Below, piece by piece: positions 2,189 to 11,100 of a stretch of 64,000 nt of DNA. The notes under the pieces were generated by a model, which saw only the letters and a program-made list of their open reading frames with translations, had not been told where the DNA came from and did not search any database. A program made the translations under genes and the position numbers. Origin of the DNA: Rhodospirillaceae bacterium SYSU D60007 (GTDB taxonomy: Bacteria; Pseudomonadota; Alphaproteobacteria; Reyranellales; Reyranellaceae); contig QOCQ01000008.1 in NCBI GenBank assembly GCA_003574685.1, positions 62,001-126,000 of the forward strand, in the 5' to 3' direction. Within the stretch, counting starts at the first letter, position 1; each line of letters starts with the position of its first letter.

Positions 2189-3604
2189 TCAGATGGCGGC
2201 CGGCGGTGGCTTTTCATCCGCTTTGGGTTCGGGTGGCAGGACCTCCTGCGGGGCGCTCACCTGCAGCCGGCTGGTGGCGGCATCGGCAGCCACGGCCAGC
2301 GGTGAGGGTGGAGGCATGCGCCACTCCGAGGTGCCGAAGGCGCCGCACGACGGACACACCGCGAGCCAGCGATCGTGTACGGTCTGGCAGTGGCGGCAGC
2401 GCCACTGCCGGTCGCCCGGCGAATCGGCCGCCCGCGCCAGCCAGTGCCGCACTTTCTCGCCATCGCCGTATTCCTGCTCCTCGACATCGGCCATCAGGCG
2501 GCAGAGCCGGGTCGGCGCATCAGGCTTTTCGGCGCCGGCGGCGATCAGATGCCGGCGCGCCTCGCCCCATAACCGCGCTTCGAGACATTCGCGCGCCAGT
2601 GCGATGCGGCTGTCGAGATCGTCGGGATTGCCGGCTGTCAGCCTGCTCAGGGCCTGCACCCGCTTGAGCGGATCCTTCTCGCCTTCTGCCGCCAGATAGA
2701 GCTGGGCGAGATCGGGATGGGGAGAGGCGGGCCAGGCGCGCTCGATCGTCTTCATCGCCTTGCGGCCTTCGCCACGCTTGATCAGAAGCTCGGCATGGCG
2801 ATAGGCGACCGGCTCGCGCTCCGGTGCCAGCGCAATAGCTGCCCGGGCGTGATCCATCGCGTCCTGGTCCGCGCCGCCGCGTTCGGCGGCACGGCTGCGC
2901 TCCACCAGCAGCAGGGCGTTAAGGGTGCGGCCCCGTTCCGGATCGACGATCTTGCGCTTGAGGCCGACCTGGAGCGTTTCCTGCGCCTCACGCCACTTGC
3001 CGGCATGCGCCTGCATGTCAAACAGCGAGCGTACCACCCATGGTGTATCGGGTCGCCGCCGGAAGGCCTGTTCGGCATAGGTCAACGCCTTGCTCGAATC
3101 GCCCGCCTTCAGCGACTGCATCAGCAAGCCGCGCAGGCCGAGGAAGGCCATTTGCGGGTCGTCCAGCATGGCCGCGAAATAGCGTTGCGCCGCTTCCCGA
3201 TCGCCGGCGAGCTGCGCGGCCTGGGCCGACAGCAGCCGCGTGAGCGGCGGCTCCTCCAGCAGCTTCTCGGCCAGCCTTGCGTGGCGCTGGGCCTCCACGG
3301 CATCGCCGGCAGCCACCGCCACCATGCCCTGGGTGAGCGCGCGATAACCCTTGCGGCGGCGCGCTTCGCCCCAGATATCGAAGACGTGGGAGGGCGCGCC
3401 GGCCACCCAGCGCCACAACACATAAAGCGCGGCCGCTATCACGCACAGCAGCGCAACGGCGACCAGCAGTACGCCGACGCTGGTATCCAGCCGCCAGCCC
3501 TGCCACTGGATTGTGACCAGGCCCGGCCGTTGGGCCAGCCACACGGCGATGGTCATTGCCACCGCCACCAGAACAAACCACACCAGCGTCCGCAGCAGCG
3601 TCAT
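2189..3604 (-). CDS. hemY: HemY-like membrane protein with C-terminal zinc ribbon
   Basis: HemY N-domain/TPR protein of the bacterial haem operon (not protoporphyrinogen oxidase, despite the shared name); its exact role is unsettled. The ATG at 3604 (MTLLRTLVWFVLVA) gives two transmembrane helices in the first 65 residues, then about 300 residues of TPR-like helices. Near the C-terminus there is a CRHC...CPSC zinc ribbon (CxxC, 13 residues, CxxC) followed by a proline-rich tail. An upstream in-frame start at 3667 would overlap the previous gene and was not used. It lies 25 bases behind the HemD-mitofilin frame, in the usual alphaproteobacterial order. Confidence 0.88.
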   Translation of the reverse strand: MTLLRTLVWFVLVAVAMTIAVWLAQRPGLVTIQWQGWRLDTSVGVLLVAVALLCVIAAALYVLWRWVAGAPSHVFDIWGEARRRKGYRALTQGMVAVAAGDAVEAQRHARLAEKLLEEPPLTRLLSAQAAQLAGDREAAQRYFAAMLDDPQMAFLGLRGLLMQSLKAGDSSKALTYAEQAFRRRPDTPWVVRSLFDMQAHAGKWREAQETLQVGLKRKIVDPERGRTLNALLLVERSRAAERGGADQDAMDHARAAIALAPEREPVAYRHAELLIKRGEGRKAMKTIERAWPASPHPDLAQLYLAAEGEKDPLKRVQALSRLTAGNPDDLDSRIALARECLEARLWGEARRHLIAAGAEKPDAPTRLCRLMADVEEQEYGDGEKVRHWLARAADSPGDRQWRCRHCQTVHDRWLAVCPSCGAFGTSEWRMPPPSPLAVAADAATSRLQVSAPQEVLPPEPKADEKPPPAAI

Positions 3605-3629: not shown

Positions 3630-5840
3630 TTATCTGGACGGAGCCTGCGACAACTGGCCGATACCATGCAGGCTCAGCCGGTCGACGGCGCGCTGTGCGG
3701 CCAGATGCGTTTCGGCGCGCGCCAGCCAATCCCGCGCCGGGGCTGCCGCCGGGTCCTTGAGCCGCTTGAGCTCGTCGACGGCGCGGGCCACGGCACCGGC
3801 ATTCACTGCCGCTTCAGCGCGCGCCAGGATCGCTTCCGGAGTCGCGCCGGCGACATCGTCACCCACCCGGCGGATCGAGACGAGCTGCCGCAGCCTGCCC
3901 AGCAGCCGCTCCCACCAGGAATCATCAGCCACGTCGGCTGCCAGCACGCGACGCGCCATTTCGGGGAACGCGGCGGCGAGGTCGCGCCGTGTCGGCACGC
4001 CGGCGGAGGCCAGCGGCGCCAGCTCGCCGTGGATGGCCGCAATGGCCGGATCGTTTGCACCGAGCGGCTTCAGCAGCTCGGCATCGGCGACAAAGGGTTC
4101 GCCCGATTCGATCGCGTAGCGCAGGCGCGTGGCAACGCCGATAGCAGCTGCCGCCCGGTCCTTGGGATCGGCGCGCCGTTCGCTATCCATCCGGGCGGCG
4201 ACATCATTGCGGACCGCTTCGATTTTCGTCGCTACATCTTTCTCGACCGCGGCGATCCGCTCGCCGAGCTTCGAAGCGGCGTCACGCGCACGCTCGATGT
4301 CCGCAGTGTTGCGCGCGAGCTGATCACGCAGCCGCGCTTCCGCCTCGCTGACGGCGCGTGCCAGGGCGGCGCCGTCGACCGCACCCGACAAGGCGCTGCT
4401 CACCTGTGCATCGCGCTTCTCCAGCAGATCGAGCCGTTCCGTCAGCGCAGCCAGCCGGCGGCCGACATCGGCGGGTAGGTCTGCCGTGCCGGTACCGGGC
4501 GTCGATGGCGTGCCGGATCTCAGGGCGGCCATGGCAGATTCTGTCGCTTCTTGTCGGCGGCTGAGCGCACCCAACTCCGTGCGCAAGGCCACAAGTTGCT
4601 CGCGGAGCTGGGGCAGATCGGGACTGCCGCCCTGCGGCAGGGACTCTACCTTCGCTGCGAGATCCTGCAGCGTGGCAAGACGCTTCTCCTGCTCGGCCAC
4701 CTGTTCTTGCAGGCCTTTTAGCTGGGTTGCCTGGGCGGAAACGCGCTCGATCGCCTGCGCCTTCGCCTCAAGCTGTGCCACGCGCTCGTCGAGCGGCTTC
4801 AGCGCGGCGGCCAGCACCTCGCGCGACACGGACGCGTCGCCCGGGCCTGCCGTGGACCGGAAGAGCTGTCGGATGGCCTCAGGCTGCGCCATGTAGACTG
4901 CCGAAGCTCCAACGAGAACCACGACGGCAGCAGCAAGGCCGATGACGAAGGCACCGAGAACCCCTACCCCACGTCGCGGCGCAGTCGCCGGGGATATGTC
5001 GGCGGCGGGCTCCGGGGTTGTGTCGGAAACTGGCCTCGCAGGTTCGCGCTTGCCGTCGTCAGGGGTGCCGGCGTCGGTAGGCTTGCTGTCGTCACTCATG
5101 CTCGGCGGTTCCGCTGCTGATGGCGTCACCGCATCGAGGGCTGCGAGGACGCCGGCCTGGGTCGGCACGCGGGCCGCAACGCGCGCGCGCCAAGGAATAC
5201 CGTCGGTGGCAGCCAGTGCTGCCGGACTGATGGCGACGGCGGTCACGCGCGCCAGATGAAGCGCAACGCCCGCCTGCCGCGCCAGCTTAACAAACACCGC
5301 CGCCGTGCGTGGCGAAAAAAACGTGACGGCGTCGAGACGGCCATCGCAGATGGCGCGCTCGATCTCCCCTGGCAAGGAATCGGCTTCCTGCGTTTCGTAG
5401 AGCGCCACTTCGCCCACGGAGAAGCCTGCCGTTCGCAGCGCACCCGCAATATCGCCCGCGCGCACGACACCGCCGACATGCATCAGCGGCCCGCCTGATG
5501 GATCGAGGTGTTCGGTGACATAGGCAACCAGTGCCCTGGCATCGCCGCTGGCCGAGTTGACATGCGTGAACCCCGCCTGGCGTGCGGCATCGGCAGTGGC
5601 GTCGCCAACGGCAATGATGCGATAGCCGCGTACTCTCGTTGCCTCCGCCATCGCGCGGGCGCCGTTGAGGCTGGTCAGCAGGATCGCCTGCGCGACGGCC
5701 AGCCGGTCGGCCAACCCTTCGGGCACAGGCAGGCGCAGGACGCGCAACATCGGCGCCAGTAGCGCCTCATGTCCGTGCGTTTCCAGGATGCGCGCGAATG
5801 ACTGCGCCTCGCATTCAGGCCGCGTGACGAGAATGCGCAT
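3630..5840 (-). CDS. hemD: Uroporphyrinogen-III synthase fused to a mitofilin-like membrane protein
   Basis: One uninterrupted 736-codon frame. Residues 1 to about 240 are HemD (MRILVTRPE start, LLTSLNGARA, FFSPRTA near the C-terminal lobe), which cyclises hydroxymethylbilane to uroporphyrinogen III. An acidic/proline linker follows, then a transmembrane helix (GAFVIGLAAAVVVLVGAS). After it come a long coiled coil and a C-terminal helical domain typical of alphaproteobacterial mitofilin/Mic60-like proteins (COG4223). In relatives these are usually separate neighbouring genes. A Met at 5099 (MSDDSKPTD, codon 248), just where mitofilin should begin, has a weak upstream GGAA and could be an internal start. 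The ATG at 5840 lies 10 bases after the hemC stop. Confidence 0.88.
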   Translation of the reverse strand: MRILVTRPECEAQSFARILETHGHEALLAPMLRVLRLPVPEGLADRLAVAQAILLTSLNGARAMAEATRVRGYRIIAVGDATADAARQAGFTHVNSASGDARALVAYVTEHLDPSGGPLMHVGGVVRAGDIAGALRTAGFSVGEVALYETQEADSLPGEIERAICDGRLDAVTFFSPRTAAVFVKLARQAGVALHLARVTAVAISPAALAATDGIPWRARVAARVPTQAGVLAALDAVTPSAAEPPSMSDDSKPTDAGTPDDGKREPARPVSDTTPEPAADISPATAPRRGVGVLGAFVIGLAAAVVVLVGASAVYMAQPEAIRQLFRSTAGPGDASVSREVLAAALKPLDERVAQLEAKAQAIERVSAQATQLKGLQEQVAEQEKRLATLQDLAAKVESLPQGGSPDLPQLREQLVALRTELGALSRRQEATESAMAALRSGTPSTPGTGTADLPADVGRRLAALTERLDLLEKRDAQVSSALSGAVDGAALARAVSEAEARLRDQLARNTADIERARDAASKLGERIAAVEKDVATKIEAVRNDVAARMDSERRADPKDRAAAAIGVATRLRYAIESGEPFVADAELLKPLGANDPAIAAIHGELAPLASAGVPTRRDLAAAFPEMARRVLAADVADDSWWERLLGRLRQLVSIRRVGDDVAGATPEAILARAEAAVNAGAVARAVDELKRLKDPAAAPARDWLARAETHLAAQRAVDRLSLHGIGQLSQAPSR

Positions 5841-5850
5841 CAGGCGGCGC

Positions 5851-6777
5851 TCAGGCGAAGAAAGCCGGCCCGGCCCGGCGATGCAATTCACTGCCGGCGT
5901 CGGCGCCAAGCTGTACGCCGTCATCGGGCAGGCCGCGCCGCTCCGTCGCGATCACCTCGCTGCCGTCGGGCCGCGCGACCAGCGCACGCAACCACAGTTG
6001 CCCGCCATCGACCACGGCGTGGCCGGCAATCGGCGTCTTGCACGACCCATCCAGCACGGCCAGCATGGCGATCTCGGCCCGCACGCACAGTGTTGTCGGA
6101 GAGTGATCTATTGCCACCAGCAGCGCACGCACGCGTGAGTCGTCGGCGCGGCATTCGACGCATACCGCGCCCTGGCCCACGGCAGGCAGCATCTCCTCGA
6201 CCGGAATCGCGGTCCCGACATCGCGCCGTCCCAGCCGGTTGAGTCCGGCCTGCGCCAGGATCAGCGCGTCCGCGGCGCCCTCCTCGAGCTTGCGCAACCG
6301 CGTATCGACGTTGCCCCGGATCGGCTGGATGCTGAGATCGGGCCGGCGATTCAGCAGAAGCGCCTGCCGGCGCAGGGCCACGGTCGCGACCATGGCACCC
6401 TTCGGCAACTCATCGATGCGGCGTGCAGCACCACGCGCGATCAGGACGTCGCGGGGATCTTCCCGCGGCAGAAAAGCCGCCAGCACCAGCCCGTCGGGCT
6501 GCCGGGTCGGCATGTCCTTGGTGCTGTGCACGGCGATATCGACAGCGCCCGCCAGCAACTGCTCTTCGATCTCCTTTGTAAACAACCCCTTGCCACCGAT
6601 CTCCGACAGGGTGCGGTCCTGGATCCTGTCACCCGTCGTGCGGATAGTGACAGTCTCGATGACGCCGTCCTCTGCCAGCAAGGGGTGCGCTGCCGCCAGC
6701 GCCTCGCGCACAAGCGCCGCCTGGGCAAGCGCCAGCGTGCTGCCGCGCGTGCCGATGCGCAGAAGAGGCTTTGTCAT
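5851..6777 (-). CDS. hemC: Hydroxymethylbilane synthase (porphobilinogen deaminase)
   Basis: Condenses four porphobilinogens into hydroxymethylbilane in the cytoplasm, feeding the HemD domain encoded next. The 308-residue length is normal. RIGTRGSTLALAQA opens the protein. The catalytic Asp is in HSTKDMPT (about residue 88), and the dipyrromethane-cofactor Cys is in LDGSCKTPIAG (Cys246). The usual SSLRR cofactor-binding motif reads VALRR here, keeping both arginines but losing the serines. It is the first gene of the leftward haem operon and is divergent from tsaD, 73 bases apart. Confidence 0.97.
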   Translation of the reverse strand: MTKPLLRIGTRGSTLALAQAALVREALAAAHPLLAEDGVIETVTIRTTGDRIQDRTLSEIGGKGLFTKEIEEQLLAGAVDIAVHSTKDMPTRQPDGLVLAAFLPREDPRDVLIARGAARRIDELPKGAMVATVALRRQALLLNRRPDLSIQPIRGNVDTRLRKLEEGAADALILAQAGLNRLGRRDVGTAIPVEEMLPAVGQGAVCVECRADDSRVRALLVAIDHSPTTLCVRAEIAMLAVLDGSCKTPIAGHAVVDGGQLWLRALVARPDGSEVIATERRGLPDDGVQLGADAGSELHRRAGPAFFA

Positions 6778-6850: not shown

Positions 6851-7945
6851 ATGACGCTGGTTCTTGGGATCGAGACGAGTTGCGACGAAACGGCGGCCGC
6901 CGTGGTTGAGGCCGCGCCTATGCCCGGCATGCCCGTGGGGCAAATCCGGTCGAATGCGATTTATGCCCAGCTCGTTGAGCACGAGGCGTTCGGCGGGGTG
7001 GTGCCGGAAATCGCCGCGCGCGCCCATCTGGAGCGTATCGATGCCGTGGTCGCGCGCGCCCTGGCCGACGCCAGTGTCGGTTTTGCCGATCTGGACGGGA
7101 TTGCAGCCACCGCCGGTCCGGGCCTGATCGGTGGCGTCATTGTCGGCGTCATGACGGCCAAAGCCATTGCGCTGGCGCATGACAAACCGTTCCTGGCCAT
7201 CAACCACCTCGAAGGGCACGCACTGACGGCGCGGCTTGTGGCGCCTGTGGCCTTTCCCTTCCTGTTGTTGCTGGTGTCGGGGGGCCACTGCCAGCTCCTC
7301 GCGGTCGAGAGCGTGGGCCGCTATGTGCGGCTGGGCACCACCATCGACGACGCCATCGGCGAGGCCTTCGACAAGACGGCGAAGCTGCTGGGCCTGGGTT
7401 TTCCCGGAGGACCCGCCGTCGAGCACGCGGCCCGTGACGGCGACCCCGCCCGATTCGACCTGCCGCGGCCCCTGTGGCGCCGCCGGGGTTGCGATTTCTC
7501 CTTCTCCGGCCTGAAAACCGCCGTGCGCCAGGCCGCAGCATCGCTCGCCCCGGGGGACACCCGCGGCATCGCCGATCTGGCGGCGAGCTTTCAACGTACG
7601 GTCGGAGACATCCTGGTCGACCGTTGCGCCAATGGGATCGATGCATTCCGGCAGCAATTTGCCGGCAGCCCGCTCATCCTCGTTGTCGCCGGCGGCGTGG
7701 CGGCCAATCAGCATTTGCGGGCACGGCTGGGAGAGTTGGCGGCGGCCTGCGGCGCGGAACTGGTTGCGCCGCCCCCGAAGCTTTGCACCGACAATGCCGC
7801 GATGATCGCCTGGGCCGGCATCGAGCGCCTGCGTCTGGGTCTGACCGACAGTCTTGACGTCGCTCCGCGCCCACGCTGGCCGCTTGATCCCGCCGCAAAG
7901 GCCGCTATCGGCAAGAGCGGTGTCGGCGCTGGCGTGAAGGTGTAG
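6851..7945 (+). CDS. tsaD: tRNA N6-adenosine threonylcarbamoyltransferase TsaD
   Basis: Transfers threonylcarbamoyl to A37 of ANN-decoding tRNAs together with TsaB and TsaE. The 364-residue protein starts [10 protein letters not shown], has the metal-binding HLEGH motif near residue 119, and contains the phosphate-binding SGGH and the C-terminal [12 protein letters not shown]. These are all hallmarks of the Kae1/TsaD family. It is divergent from hemC, the standard alphaproteobacterial order. The 2-oxoglutarate oxygenase gene begins 9 bases downstream, so the two are probably cotranscribed. Confidence 0.97.
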
Positions 7946-7954
7946 GGTGCCGGC

Positions 7955-8596
7955 ATGAGTTCCGCCGCCCCCAGGGTCGAGGTTGCGCCGCTGTTTGCCA
8001 CACCGGTCGCGGTGGTCGAAGTCCCCGACGCCGCCGGCCTGAACGCCGCGCTCAAGCGGGTGATCCTGGAGCACGAGAAGACCACGCCGGGGACGCAGCA
8101 CAGCAATCTCGGCGGCTGGCAGTCGGCCTGGGACATGGAACGCTGGGGCGGCCCGGGGGTGGCGCGCCTGCTCGATGTGGCGCGCGGCGTGGCCAATGGA
8201 CTCACCTGCGATCGCCAGGGACGTCCGGTCACCATCGTCTGGAAAACCAACATCTGGGCGAACATCAACCGCGCCGGCCATGGCAATGAGTTTCATTTCC
8301 ATCCCGGCAGCTTCTGGTCGGGCGTGTACTACGTGGAGGATGGCGGCATCGGCGCCGATCCCGCACTGGGGGGCGAGCTGGAGTTCATGGATCCCCGCGG
8401 TGCGGCGCCAGCCATGTATGCGCCGAATCTTGCCTGGACGGTGCCGGGTGGCCGTGCCATTGGCGCGTGCGAAACCATTCCGCCGCGCGCGGGACGCATG
8501 GTCATCTTTCCGGCGTGGATGCTGCATGCGGTGCGCCCCTACCGCGGCGCAGTCGAGCGCATTTCCGTCGCTTTCAACCTCAGCATACAGCCATGA
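7955..8596 (+). CDS. Putative 2-oxoglutarate/Fe(II) oxygenase (TIGR02466-like)
   Basis: A 213-residue cupin-fold protein resembling the TIGR02466 / 2OG-FeII_Oxy_5 group. Visible landmarks are FHFHPGSFWSGVYYV (first iron-binding region), GELEFMDPR, and near the end VIFPAWMLHAVRPY followed by ERISVAFNLS, where the second His and the 2OG-binding Arg are expected. The substrate is unknown. The TGA overlaps the ATG of the next gene (ATGA), which implies translational coupling to a second oxygenase. Both lie between tsaD and gpsA. Confidence 0.8.
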   Translation: MSSAAPRVEVAPLFATPVAVVEVPDAAGLNAALKRVILEHEKTTPGTQHSNLGGWQSAWDMERWGGPGVARLLDVARGVANGLTCDRQGRPVTIVWKTNIWANINRAGHGNEFHFHPGSFWSGVYYVEDGGIGADPALGGELEFMDPRGAAPAMYAPNLAWTVPGGRAIGACETIPPRAGRMVIFPAWMLHAVRPYRGAVERISVAFNLSIQP

Positions 8597-9663
8597 ACGG
8601 CACGCTCTTTCCCTTCCGGCCTGGCGATCGGGTGCCCGATATCGCCCTGCCCGGACCCGACGGCCAGATGCGGCGCCTGTTGTGGACATTCCAGGGCGAG
8701 CCGGTCGTGCTCATCGTGCTGGCGAATGCCGGTGCCTGCGGCAGCGAGACGATCCAGCTCCTGCGTGACGTCATCGGCGAGGGCGCGACACCCGTGCTGG
8801 TCATCGGCGCCGCGCCCACCACCGCGCAGACCCTTCTGGGCGAGGTGAAAGCTCCCGGCGGTACCGTGCCCTTCACGCTGTGCGATGGCGAACAGCGGTT
8901 CCTGCGCCTGTTGCTGGCCCCCGACTCGGCCGGTGCCACACCAGCGCAGCGGCGCGTTCTCGTCCTCGATGCCAATCAGCGCCTTCTGATGCAAACCGGC
9001 GAGGCAACATCCGACGCTGTTAGCGCCGCCATTCGCGATGCGATCGCCGGCGCACGCGCCGATCTTCCCGCCGATTCCCTGCTGTTCGGCTCGGTTGCCC
9101 CGGTACTGATGCTGCCCCGTGTTTTCGAGCCGCCGTTCTGCCGCCGGCTGATCGAGCTATGGTCGTCCGGCGAACGCGCCGATGGCGGCGTTTCCAGCCG
9201 CTACGGCAATGTGATGGCGGCCGACCGCAAGCGCACCGAAGACCACATCGTGCGCGACGCGACACTCAACAAGGAGATCTCCGACCGGCTTGCCTATCGC
9301 ATCGGACCGGAGCTGGCCAAGGCCTTCGGCTGGGACCAGGAATTCGGCTTCGATGCCCATGTGATCATCTCGTACTCGGCCGAGGGCGGGCATTATTTCC
9401 GCGCGCACCGGGACAACAGCGCACCGCAGACAGCCGACCGCGCATTTGCGGTGTCGCTCAATCTCAACGACGATTTCGAGGGCGGCGAGCTGGTCTTCCC
9501 CGAATACGGGCCCACCCGCTACAAGCCGAAGGCCGGGGCGGCGGCCGTGTTCTCGTGCTCCCTGCTGCACGAGGCCCTGCCCGTGACGCGCGGGCGGCGC
9601 TTCGTGGTCACGACCTTCTTCCGCAACCGCGGCCGGCAGGGAACGCAGCGCCGGCCCGCGTGA
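8593..9663 (+). CDS. Peroxiredoxin-like domain fused to a prolyl-4-hydroxylase-type 2OG oxygenase
   Basis: 356 residues. The N-terminal ~170 resemble an AhpC/TSA-thioredoxin fold (FRPGDRVPDIALPGPDG, then a single Cys in ANAGACGSE, where peroxiredoxins carry the peroxidatic Cys). The C-terminal ~180 form a P4Hc-type Fe(II)/2OG dioxygenase: YFRAHRDNSAP supplies H and D, SLLHEALPVTRGRRFV supplies the distal His and Arg, and FEGGELVFPEYG lies between them. The start at 8593 overlaps the previous stop. A longer frame from 8467 lies inside the upstream gene and was rejected. Substrate unknown; a protein or small-molecule hydroxylase is plausible. Confidence 0.82.
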   Translation: MNGTLFPFRPGDRVPDIALPGPDGQMRRLLWTFQGEPVVLIVLANAGACGSETIQLLRDVIGEGATPVLVIGAAPTTAQTLLGEVKAPGGTVPFTLCDGEQRFLRLLLAPDSAGATPAQRRVLVLDANQRLLMQTGEATSDAVSAAIRDAIAGARADLPADSLLFGSVAPVLMLPRVFEPPFCRRLIELWSSGERADGGVSSRYGNVMAADRKRTEDHIVRDATLNKEISDRLAYRIGPELAKAFGWDQEFGFDAHVIISYSAEGGHYFRAHRDNSAPQTADRAFAVSLNLNDDFEGGELVFPEYGPTRYKPKAGAAAVFSCSLLHEALPVTRGRRFVVTTFFRNRGRQGTQRRPA

Positions 9664-9680
9664 CCGGTGCCGCATGGCCG

Positions 9681-10685
9681 ATGGCTGACCGTTACGTGCA
9701 TATCGGGATCGTGGGCGCCGGCGCATGGGGGACGGCGCTGGCGCTGACGACGCAGCGCGCCGGCCGCCGCACCACCCTCTGGGCGCGCGAACCGGAGGTG
9801 GTCGCCGACGTCAACGGCGCGCACCGCAACGACCGTTTCCTGCCGGATCATCCGCTCGATCCCGCGATCATCGCAACCGAATCGCTCGCCGATCTGGCAG
9901 CCTGCGACGTGGCGCTGCTGGTGACGCCCGCCCAGCATACGCGGGGGTTGGCGCAGGAACTGGATGGCCTGCTGCCGGCTTCTGTTCCGGTCATGATTTG
10001 CGCCAAGGGCATCGAGGCCTCGACGGGCAAGCTGATGCCCGAGGCCGTCCGCGAGGCCATGCCCACGCGCGCGGTGTGCATGCTGTCGGGCCCCACCTTC
10101 GCCGAGGAAGTGGCACGTGGATTGCCTACGGCCGTCACGCTGGCGAGTCCCGACCGCGCGCTGGGCGAATCGCTGGCGCATGCGCTGCGCACGCCGGCGT
10201 TCCGTCCCTACTGGACCGACGACATGGTGGGCGTGGCGCTGGGCGGTGCCATCAAGAACGTCCTCGCCATCGCCTGCGGCATCGTCGAGGGACGCGGGCT
10301 GGGCGACAACGCACGTGCTGCGGTGCTGACCCGCGGCTTTGCCGAGATGGCGCGGCTGGGATTCGCCATGGGCGCGAGACTCGAGACGCTGACGGGTCTG
10401 GCGGGACTGGGAGACCTGACCCTCACCTGCAACGGTCCCCTCTCGCGCAACCGTGCCCTGGGCGCCAGCATCGGCCAGGGCGTGACGGCCGCCACCTTCC
10501 TTGCGGGCAAGCAGAGCATTGCCGAGGGATACTACACCGCGCCCGTGGTGCAGGCCCTCGCCGCGCGCCACGGCGTCGAGATGCCAATCTGTACGGCAGT
10601 GGCGGCGCTGCTGCATGATGACGCCAATGTCGATGAAACGATCCGCGCCCTGCTGGCGCGGCCGCTGAAGGGTGAGGGAGCCTGA
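9681..10685 (+). CDS. gpsA: Glycerol-3-phosphate dehydrogenase [NAD(P)+]
   Basis: Makes sn-glycerol-3-phosphate from dihydroxyacetone phosphate for phospholipid synthesis. The ATG at 9681 gives MADRYVHIGIVGAGAWGTAL, with the Rossmann GAGAWG right at the N-terminus. The catalytic Lys is in GGAIKNVLAIACGI, and GLGDLTLTC is the usual downstream signature. Length 334 is typical. The apparent 508-residue frame starting at 9159 is read-through of the previous gene in another frame. It is followed after one base by the EVE gene. Confidence 0.96.
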   Translation: MADRYVHIGIVGAGAWGTALALTTQRAGRRTTLWAREPEVVADVNGAHRNDRFLPDHPLDPAIIATESLADLAACDVALLVTPAQHTRGLAQELDGLLPASVPVMICAKGIEASTGKLMPEAVREAMPTRAVCMLSGPTFAEEVARGLPTAVTLASPDRALGESLAHALRTPAFRPYWTDDMVGVALGGAIKNVLAIACGIVEGRGLGDNARAAVLTRGFAEMARLGFAMGARLETLTGLAGLGDLTLTCNGPLSRNRALGASIGQGVTAATFLAGKQSIAEGYYTAPVVQALAARHGVEMPICTAVAALLHDDANVDETIRALLARPLKGEGA

Positions 10686-10686
10686 G

Positions 10687-11100
10687 ATGGCCTATTGGCT
10701 GGTGAAGTCGGAACCGTCTTCGTACTCGTGGGACCAGCTCGTGAAGGACAAGCGCACCTTCTGGAGCGGGGTGCGCAACTTCCAGGCCAGCGCCAACCTG
10801 AAGGCCATGAAGAACGGCGACCTGGTGCTGTTCTACCACTCCAATGTCGGGCTAGAGATCGTCGGCATCGCACGCGTCGTGAAGGAGTACTATCCCGACC
10901 ACACCGACAAGAGCGGCAAGTTCGGCATGGTCGATCTGGAGGCGGTGAAGCCGCTCAACAAGCCGGTCACCCTGGCCGCGATCAAGGCGGAACCGAAGCT
11001 GAAGGACCTGGCGCTGGTGCGCCTGTCCCGCCTCTCGGTGCAGCCGGTCTCCGACGAACACTGGGCCCTGCTGCTGAAGATGGCCGAGACGACGGCGTAG
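10687..11100 (+). CDS. EVE domain protein
   Basis: A 137-residue stand-alone EVE domain (PUA-like fold), a family reported to bind modified bases in DNA or RNA. Visible family marks are AYWLVKSEP at the N-terminus, GVRNFQASANLKAMKNGD, FYHSN and GIARVVKEYYPD. The ATG at 10687 sits one base after the gpsA stop; a GTG at 10672 would overlap gpsA and is less likely. The gpsA-EVE pairing is common in Alphaproteobacteria. No catalytic residues are expected. Confidence 0.92.
   Translation: MAYWLVKSEPSSYSWDQLVKDKRTFWSGVRNFQASANLKAMKNGDLVLFYHSNVGLEIVGIARVVKEYYPDHTDKSGKFGMVDLEAVKPLNKPVTLAAIKAEPKLKDLALVRLSRLSVQPVSDEHWALLLKMAETTA

Follow-up and report, generated by a model that had tools for sequence, protein, structure and literature searches.

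Why should a haem enzyme and a membrane-shaping protein share one reading frame, and does such a frame yield one product or two? This question is raised by a locus in the 64,000-nucleotide stretch of DNA from Rhodospirillaceae bacterium SYSU D60007 that was analysed here (hereafter the window). An open frame of 736 codons on the minus strand (3630..5840) runs from an ATG at 5840, where the protein begins with MRILVTRP, to a stop codon at 3630, and no stop interrupts it. The first part of the product (residues 14-232; 5145..5801, minus strand) matched the HEM4 domain of HemD, uroporphyrinogen-III synthase, with 128 bits against a cut-off of 27.5, covering profile positions 2-230 of 231 (Pfam PF02602). 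According to a genome scan, this fused copy is the single HEM4 match in the genome of the window. The domain is followed by a linker of about 50 residues, disordered and of low conservation, whose beginning (5100..5144, minus strand) lies in open frame between HemD and an internal in-frame ATG. A single transmembrane helix was predicted at about residues 292-316 (4893..4967, minus strand), with a Kyte-Doolittle peak of 2.85 and every other 19-residue stretch at 1.6 or below; the lysine and arginine residues on either side of it are equal in number (2 and 2), by which its topology is not settled. Residues from about 317 to 491 (4367..4892, minus strand) matched coiled-coil models only and are helical in a low-confidence model.

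The remaining part (residues 492-722; 3675..4367, minus strand) matched Mitofilin (Pfam PF09731) with a marginal score of 27.7 bits against a cut-off of 27.4, which rose to 28.6 bits if the part after the internal ATG was scanned alone. All 18 members of a family alignment (A1) matched PF09731 at E 0.01 or better, and the family profile derived from it matched a solved Mic60 chain (7pv1, E 5.9e-7) as well as the solved uroporphyrinogen-III synthases 4es6 and 1jr2. An AlphaFold2 model of the fusion, based on a two-row alignment, reached a pLDDT of 48 and a pTM of 0.25. The Mic60-like half carries a membrane helix, then a coiled coil, then a mitofilin end, and it is confirmed that HemD and this half form one real continuous frame in the window. 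Two claims of the preliminary description, that HemD shares a frame with a mitofilin-like membrane protein and that a transmembrane helix would tether it, were therefore borne out by the HEM4 and Mitofilin matches without an intervening stop and by the single predicted helix.

The fused gene lies in a neighbourhood of hem genes. Downstream of it is hemY (HemY_N and TPR; 2189..3604, minus strand; Pfam PF07219, 92.5 bits), whose product ends in a tail rich in cysteine; this tail resembles the LapB zinc ribbon weakly, at E 0.008 and under the cut-off. A separate open frame upstream (5851..6777, minus strand) is taken by us, from its sequence and from the gene order, to be hemC; likewise, the names used here for frames at 6851-11100, beyond those in the order of a described operon, are our presumption. 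In that operon, known from alphaproteobacteria, hemC, hemD, a mitofilin gene (IMMP) and hemY follow one another, head to head with tsaD-gpsA-YciI-EVE, according to the available part of the source (PMC7641849). The order and orientation are the same at the locus of the window, hemC included; the difference is that hemD and IMMP are separate genes there, whereas they form one frame here. The divergent cluster of the window (6851-11100) has a tsaD-like frame at its start and an EVE-like one at its end, in agreement with PMC7641849, but tsaD and the gpsA-like frame are separated by two further frames (7955-8596 and about 8467-9663), unlike the order given in the part of that source consulted.

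The family to which the window belongs (f1) comprised 75 genomes, 70 of which had a match, and 64 loci were taken for analysis. HemD and Mic60 were found in one frame in 61 of them, and the junction between the two was open in all 64. The three others are interrupted elsewhere, by a contig edge (L161), by a frame change inside the coiled coil (L024) or by one in-frame TAG inside the coiled coil (L030), and each of them keeps the open junction and the internal ATG; for L024 and L030, an assembly error or a real break could be responsible. HEM4 was detected in 69 of the 75 genomes, with exactly one match above the cut-off in each. Thus, the fusion is the rule in f1 and no oddity of one genome. 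A sequencing or assembly error that masks a stop codon near 5100-5170, which the preliminary description had named as a possible refutation, is excluded because the same open junction is shared by all 64 f1 loci, including the three that are broken or cut elsewhere. One locus of the family (L008) has a 352-base gap between the fused gene and hemY, a distance of a few bases in the other f1 loci.

To place the fusion within the class, we used a sample of 241 genomes, 188 with a match and 184 of these outside f1. The 100 outside loci that were analysed consisted of 98 from these 184 genomes, nearly all of them the best-scoring, together with one from the same order as the window (L126) and one from an alphaproteobacterial MAG (L031). 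In this score-biased sample, 36 loci were fused, 60 were split and 4 had no Mic60 match; since full-length fusions get higher scores, 36% is an upper bound. Conservation of the fusion among alphaproteobacterial genomes, for which the preliminary description had proposed a check, was therefore found both in f1 (61 of 64 loci) and outside it (36 of 100). Its statement that relatives keep hemD and the mitofilin gene apart holds for the 60 split loci outside f1 and fails for the 36 fused ones and for f1 itself. On a rapidly built tree that comprised 96 outside loci and 13 f1 loci (109 in all) and is weakly resolved, 44 of its 106 inner branches being unsupported, the state changed between fused and split at least 22 times; fusion is therefore frequent and repeated rather than unique. 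The f1 loci formed one group with a support of 88, and their nearest outgroup, L126, is split.

Several additional observations concern the distribution of the two states. The family f41 contains one fused and two split loci (L042, L045 and L099), one of the latter being split by an in-frame TGA with a GTG start directly after it and the other by an ATGA overlap, and would be a place to study the origin of the fusion. A search for related loci in genome contigs returned one locus only (L031), and a search of plasmids gave 11 records with matches to the HemD part only, none of them reaching 80% coverage. A triple fusion of HemC, HemD and Mic60, at which the great length of open frames in L004 and L005 had hinted, was rejected, as none of the 101 loci with a hemC match joins hemC to hemD in frame.

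The internal in-frame ATG of the window (residue 248; 5097..5099, minus strand) is the putative start of a free Mic60 of 489 residues, in which SDDSK would follow the initial Met. An ATG at this place, the start of Mic60, was present in 64 of the 64 f1 loci, or in 42 of 42 once near-copies had been removed (a non-redundant set less than 90% identical in HemD). It is located about 19-35 residues past the last conserved HemD motif, and in all 64 loci the next residue is Ser or Thr and the one after that Asp or Glu (in L029, after a second nearby ATG). The codons at positions -6 to -4 before it read GTA-xAA-GGA and, in the 42 loci, are kept at the level of nucleotides. Glycine at -4 is encoded by GGA in 29 of 30 cases, compared with 6% of the Gly codons in these genes, and valine at -6 by GTA in 21 of 22, compared with 4% of the Val codons. 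At -5, the residue varies among Q, E and K (CAA in 12 of 13, GAA in 8 of 9 and AAA in 4 of 4 cases), and AAGGA stays.

In a whole-gene codon alignment, the three GTA-xAA-GGA columns exceeded all others among the 489 columns in AT-ending codons. With only the two commonest codons of each column counted, the GGA fraction was 0.94 at -4, and the second-highest value among the 31 Gly columns was 0.10; for GTA, the fraction was 0.96 at -6 and the second-highest value among the 35 Val columns was 0.0. AAGGA or AGGAG occurred 4-20 nt before the internal ATG in 24 of the 42 loci compared with 6 of 160 other in-frame ATGs (Fisher p 1.4e-14, related loci being treated as independent); at other codons of f1 genes, the figure was 426 of 24,763. 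Third-position GC was 0.41 at -7 to -4 of the internal ATG and about 0.86 elsewhere in f1; in the genus of the window it was 0.31 at these positions, a value from 16 codons only. It was also low (0.58) at +4 to +7 after the internal ATG, which is not counted as evidence because hemD starts, at 0.91, lack such a decrease.

It should be noted that the signal is uneven. Neither AAGGA nor AGGAG is found in 18 of the 42 loci, and 2 of the 42 have no Shine-Dalgarno triplet at all. The window itself has GGAA 10-13 nt upstream of the ATG (5109..5112, minus strand), Shine-Dalgarno-like bases that align with the conserved AAGGA of other f1 members and are weaker than those of most. The pairing energy with the anti-Shine-Dalgarno sequence did not differ significantly from that of synonymous shuffles, with means of -4.47 and -4.21 kcal/mol in f1 (p <0.05 in 3 of 64 loci) and of -4.29 and -3.34 kcal/mol in the other fusions (p <0.05 in 2 of 36). 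In this energy test, GC-rich synonymous codons (GAGGGC, for example) are no worse at pairing than AAGGA, so that conservation of codon columns was tested instead, a test that was chosen after the junction sequences had been seen and was not blind. We read GTA-xAA-GGA as a probable Shine-Dalgarno site maintained by selection. A conserved start codon with an upstream ribosome-binding signal is present in f1 as a whole and weak in the window itself. The possible internal start at 5099 had been proposed in the preliminary description, and the ATG in all 64 loci, together with the conserved stretch that resembles a ribosome-binding site, makes it the part of that account with the strongest evidence.

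Start signals could also be identified in fusions outside f1. An ATG stands close after HemD in 24 of these 36 fusions, and in 19 of the 24 it is preceded by a Shine-Dalgarno tetramer, compared with 29 of 208 other in-frame ATGs of the same fusions (Fisher p 7e-11, in a test whose significance is inflated by kinship and in which a locus may count through any one of several ATGs, the others being counted one ATG at a time). Some start codon with such a tetramer was found in 25 of the 36; split mic60 genes, by comparison, had one before their first ATG in 34 of 60 cases. In three outside fusions (L054, L058 and L064), the stretch searched after HemD holds no ATG, GTG or TTG, and an internal start is therefore not needed everywhere.

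Two explanations would leave the internal ATG without a role. In one, a protease cuts the fusion in its linker and releases separate HemD and Mic60. The disordered and poorly conserved character of the linker is compatible with cutting, but a kept internal start would then be superfluous as a source of Mic60, and we consider this explanation clearly improbable. In the other, only the full-length fusion is made and the ATG is a relic of a once separate mic60 gene. The ATG with its following residues (MSD or MTD) does resemble an old N-terminus, and the weak Shine-Dalgarno bases of the window, the lack of significance in the pairing-energy test and the three outside fusions without a start codon all agree with this. 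A relic should decay, however, and the ATG is kept in 64 of 64 f1 loci while the surrounding linker differs among them in length and sequence; moreover, GTA-xAA-GGA is preserved as nucleotides against codon usage. The relic is thus an improbable explanation as well.

A stronger alternative concerns the fusion itself: the stop codon of hemD may have been lost once in the ancestor of f1 by neutral read-through, so that the tether has no function. The split state of the nearest outgroup and the frequent alternation between fused and split loci fit this explanation. On the other hand, HemD and the ATG are separated by 11 different distances among the 42 non-redundant f1 loci, which requires at least 15 changes on the HemD tree, and the frame was never lost. 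Were a stop after HemD harmless, as the 60 split loci might suggest, about two thirds of the length changes should break the frame, and the out-of-frame ones would simply give the split state of 60 of the 100 other loci. The preserved frame therefore speaks for selection on it, in an argument that is no formal test and that three-base repeats could bias. In our view, a functionless tether is possible, if short of probable.

Judging from these sequence features, we think it likely that the locus is a nested gene that gives both a tethered HemD-Mic60 and a free Mic60 from the internal start. Ribosomes starting at 5840 would make the 736-residue protein, in which a cytoplasmic HemD is followed by the disordered linker, one membrane helix, the coiled coil and the mitofilin domain; the last two would be periplasmic, as is the case for other Mic60 proteins. 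Translation from the ATG at 5099 would give the free Mic60 of 489 residues. Since HemD has neither a stop codon of its own nor a second copy in the genome, every HemD made would be anchored unless it is cut later, and Mic60 could be made in excess over it. Mic60 oligomerises, according to the part of the literature consulted (PMC12631773), so mixed complexes with HemD on some subunits only may form, and the coiled coil could mix the long and the short products. The purpose might be to keep uroporphyrinogen-III synthase close to HemY at the membrane, or to tie the supply of Mic60 to haem synthesis; the suggestion of the preliminary description that uroporphyrinogen synthesis could be placed at membrane folds is speculative. 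A much stronger version takes the arrangement to be a selected device. All HemD would then be attached to oligomers of Mic60 where the inner membrane bends or forms contacts, the proportions of Mic60 with and without the enzyme would be set by the internal start, and tetrapyrrole synthesis would be part of the bacterial counterpart of the cristae-organising machinery; this version is tentative and rather unlikely. If it were true, the repeated gain of the fusion across the class would explain the position of mic60 in the haem operon.

The closest known kind of protein is the fused HemD/HemX (NF005411, PRK06975), found mainly in beta- and gammaproteobacteria. It resembles the product described here in that HemD forms the N-terminus of a chain that continues with a membrane helix and a coiled coil, from a hem cluster, and differs in that the membrane part of the window protein matches Mitofilin and not HemX. 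On the HemD part, NF005411 reached 18.0 bits where 414 are required, and it was not among the matches listed up to E 1 when the whole protein was scanned; the HemX family was likewise not among the Pfam matches at E up to 1, from which weak ones above about 0.1 had mostly been dropped. With bacterial and mitochondrial Mic60, the protein shares the membrane helix, the coiled coil and the C-terminal mitofilin domain, whereas in the long product an enzyme replaces the short cytoplasmic N-terminus. Genes of bacteria and archaea with an internal start, for example Cas11b (PMC11899642), also give two products from one frame, the shorter from the internal start. In contrast with that type, the predicted products of the window combine an enzyme of metabolism with a protein that shapes membranes, and the internal start is a putative one.

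No description of a HemD-Mic60 fusion was found in the open literature searched, and an earlier description elsewhere is possible; one paper there mentions both mitofilin and uroporphyrinogen (PMC7641849, available in part). Mic60 is regarded as a mitochondrial inheritance from an alphaproteobacterium in the part of PMC12631773 consulted, and the portions of the literature consulted do not explain why bacterial mic60 stands among haem genes. The repeated fusion with HemD suggests that proximity benefits the two proteins or is at least tolerated by them. In a fused gene that has kept its internal start, the link between haem and Mic60 can be tested by a few point changes. For annotation, it should be considered that a free Mic60 may be overlooked where only the fusion is called.

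Some fusions outside f1 have a further domain. In six of them (L035, L056, L071, L087, L094 and L107), an extra stretch before the membrane helix was identified as a carph-isopro domain in 6 of 6 scanned, with 49-65 bits against a cut-off of 38 (NF046037). This domain is weakly similar to Cro-type DNA-binding domains, so that a helix-turn-helix-like domain accompanies HemD and Mic60 in these chains. L108 resembles these fusions by eye.
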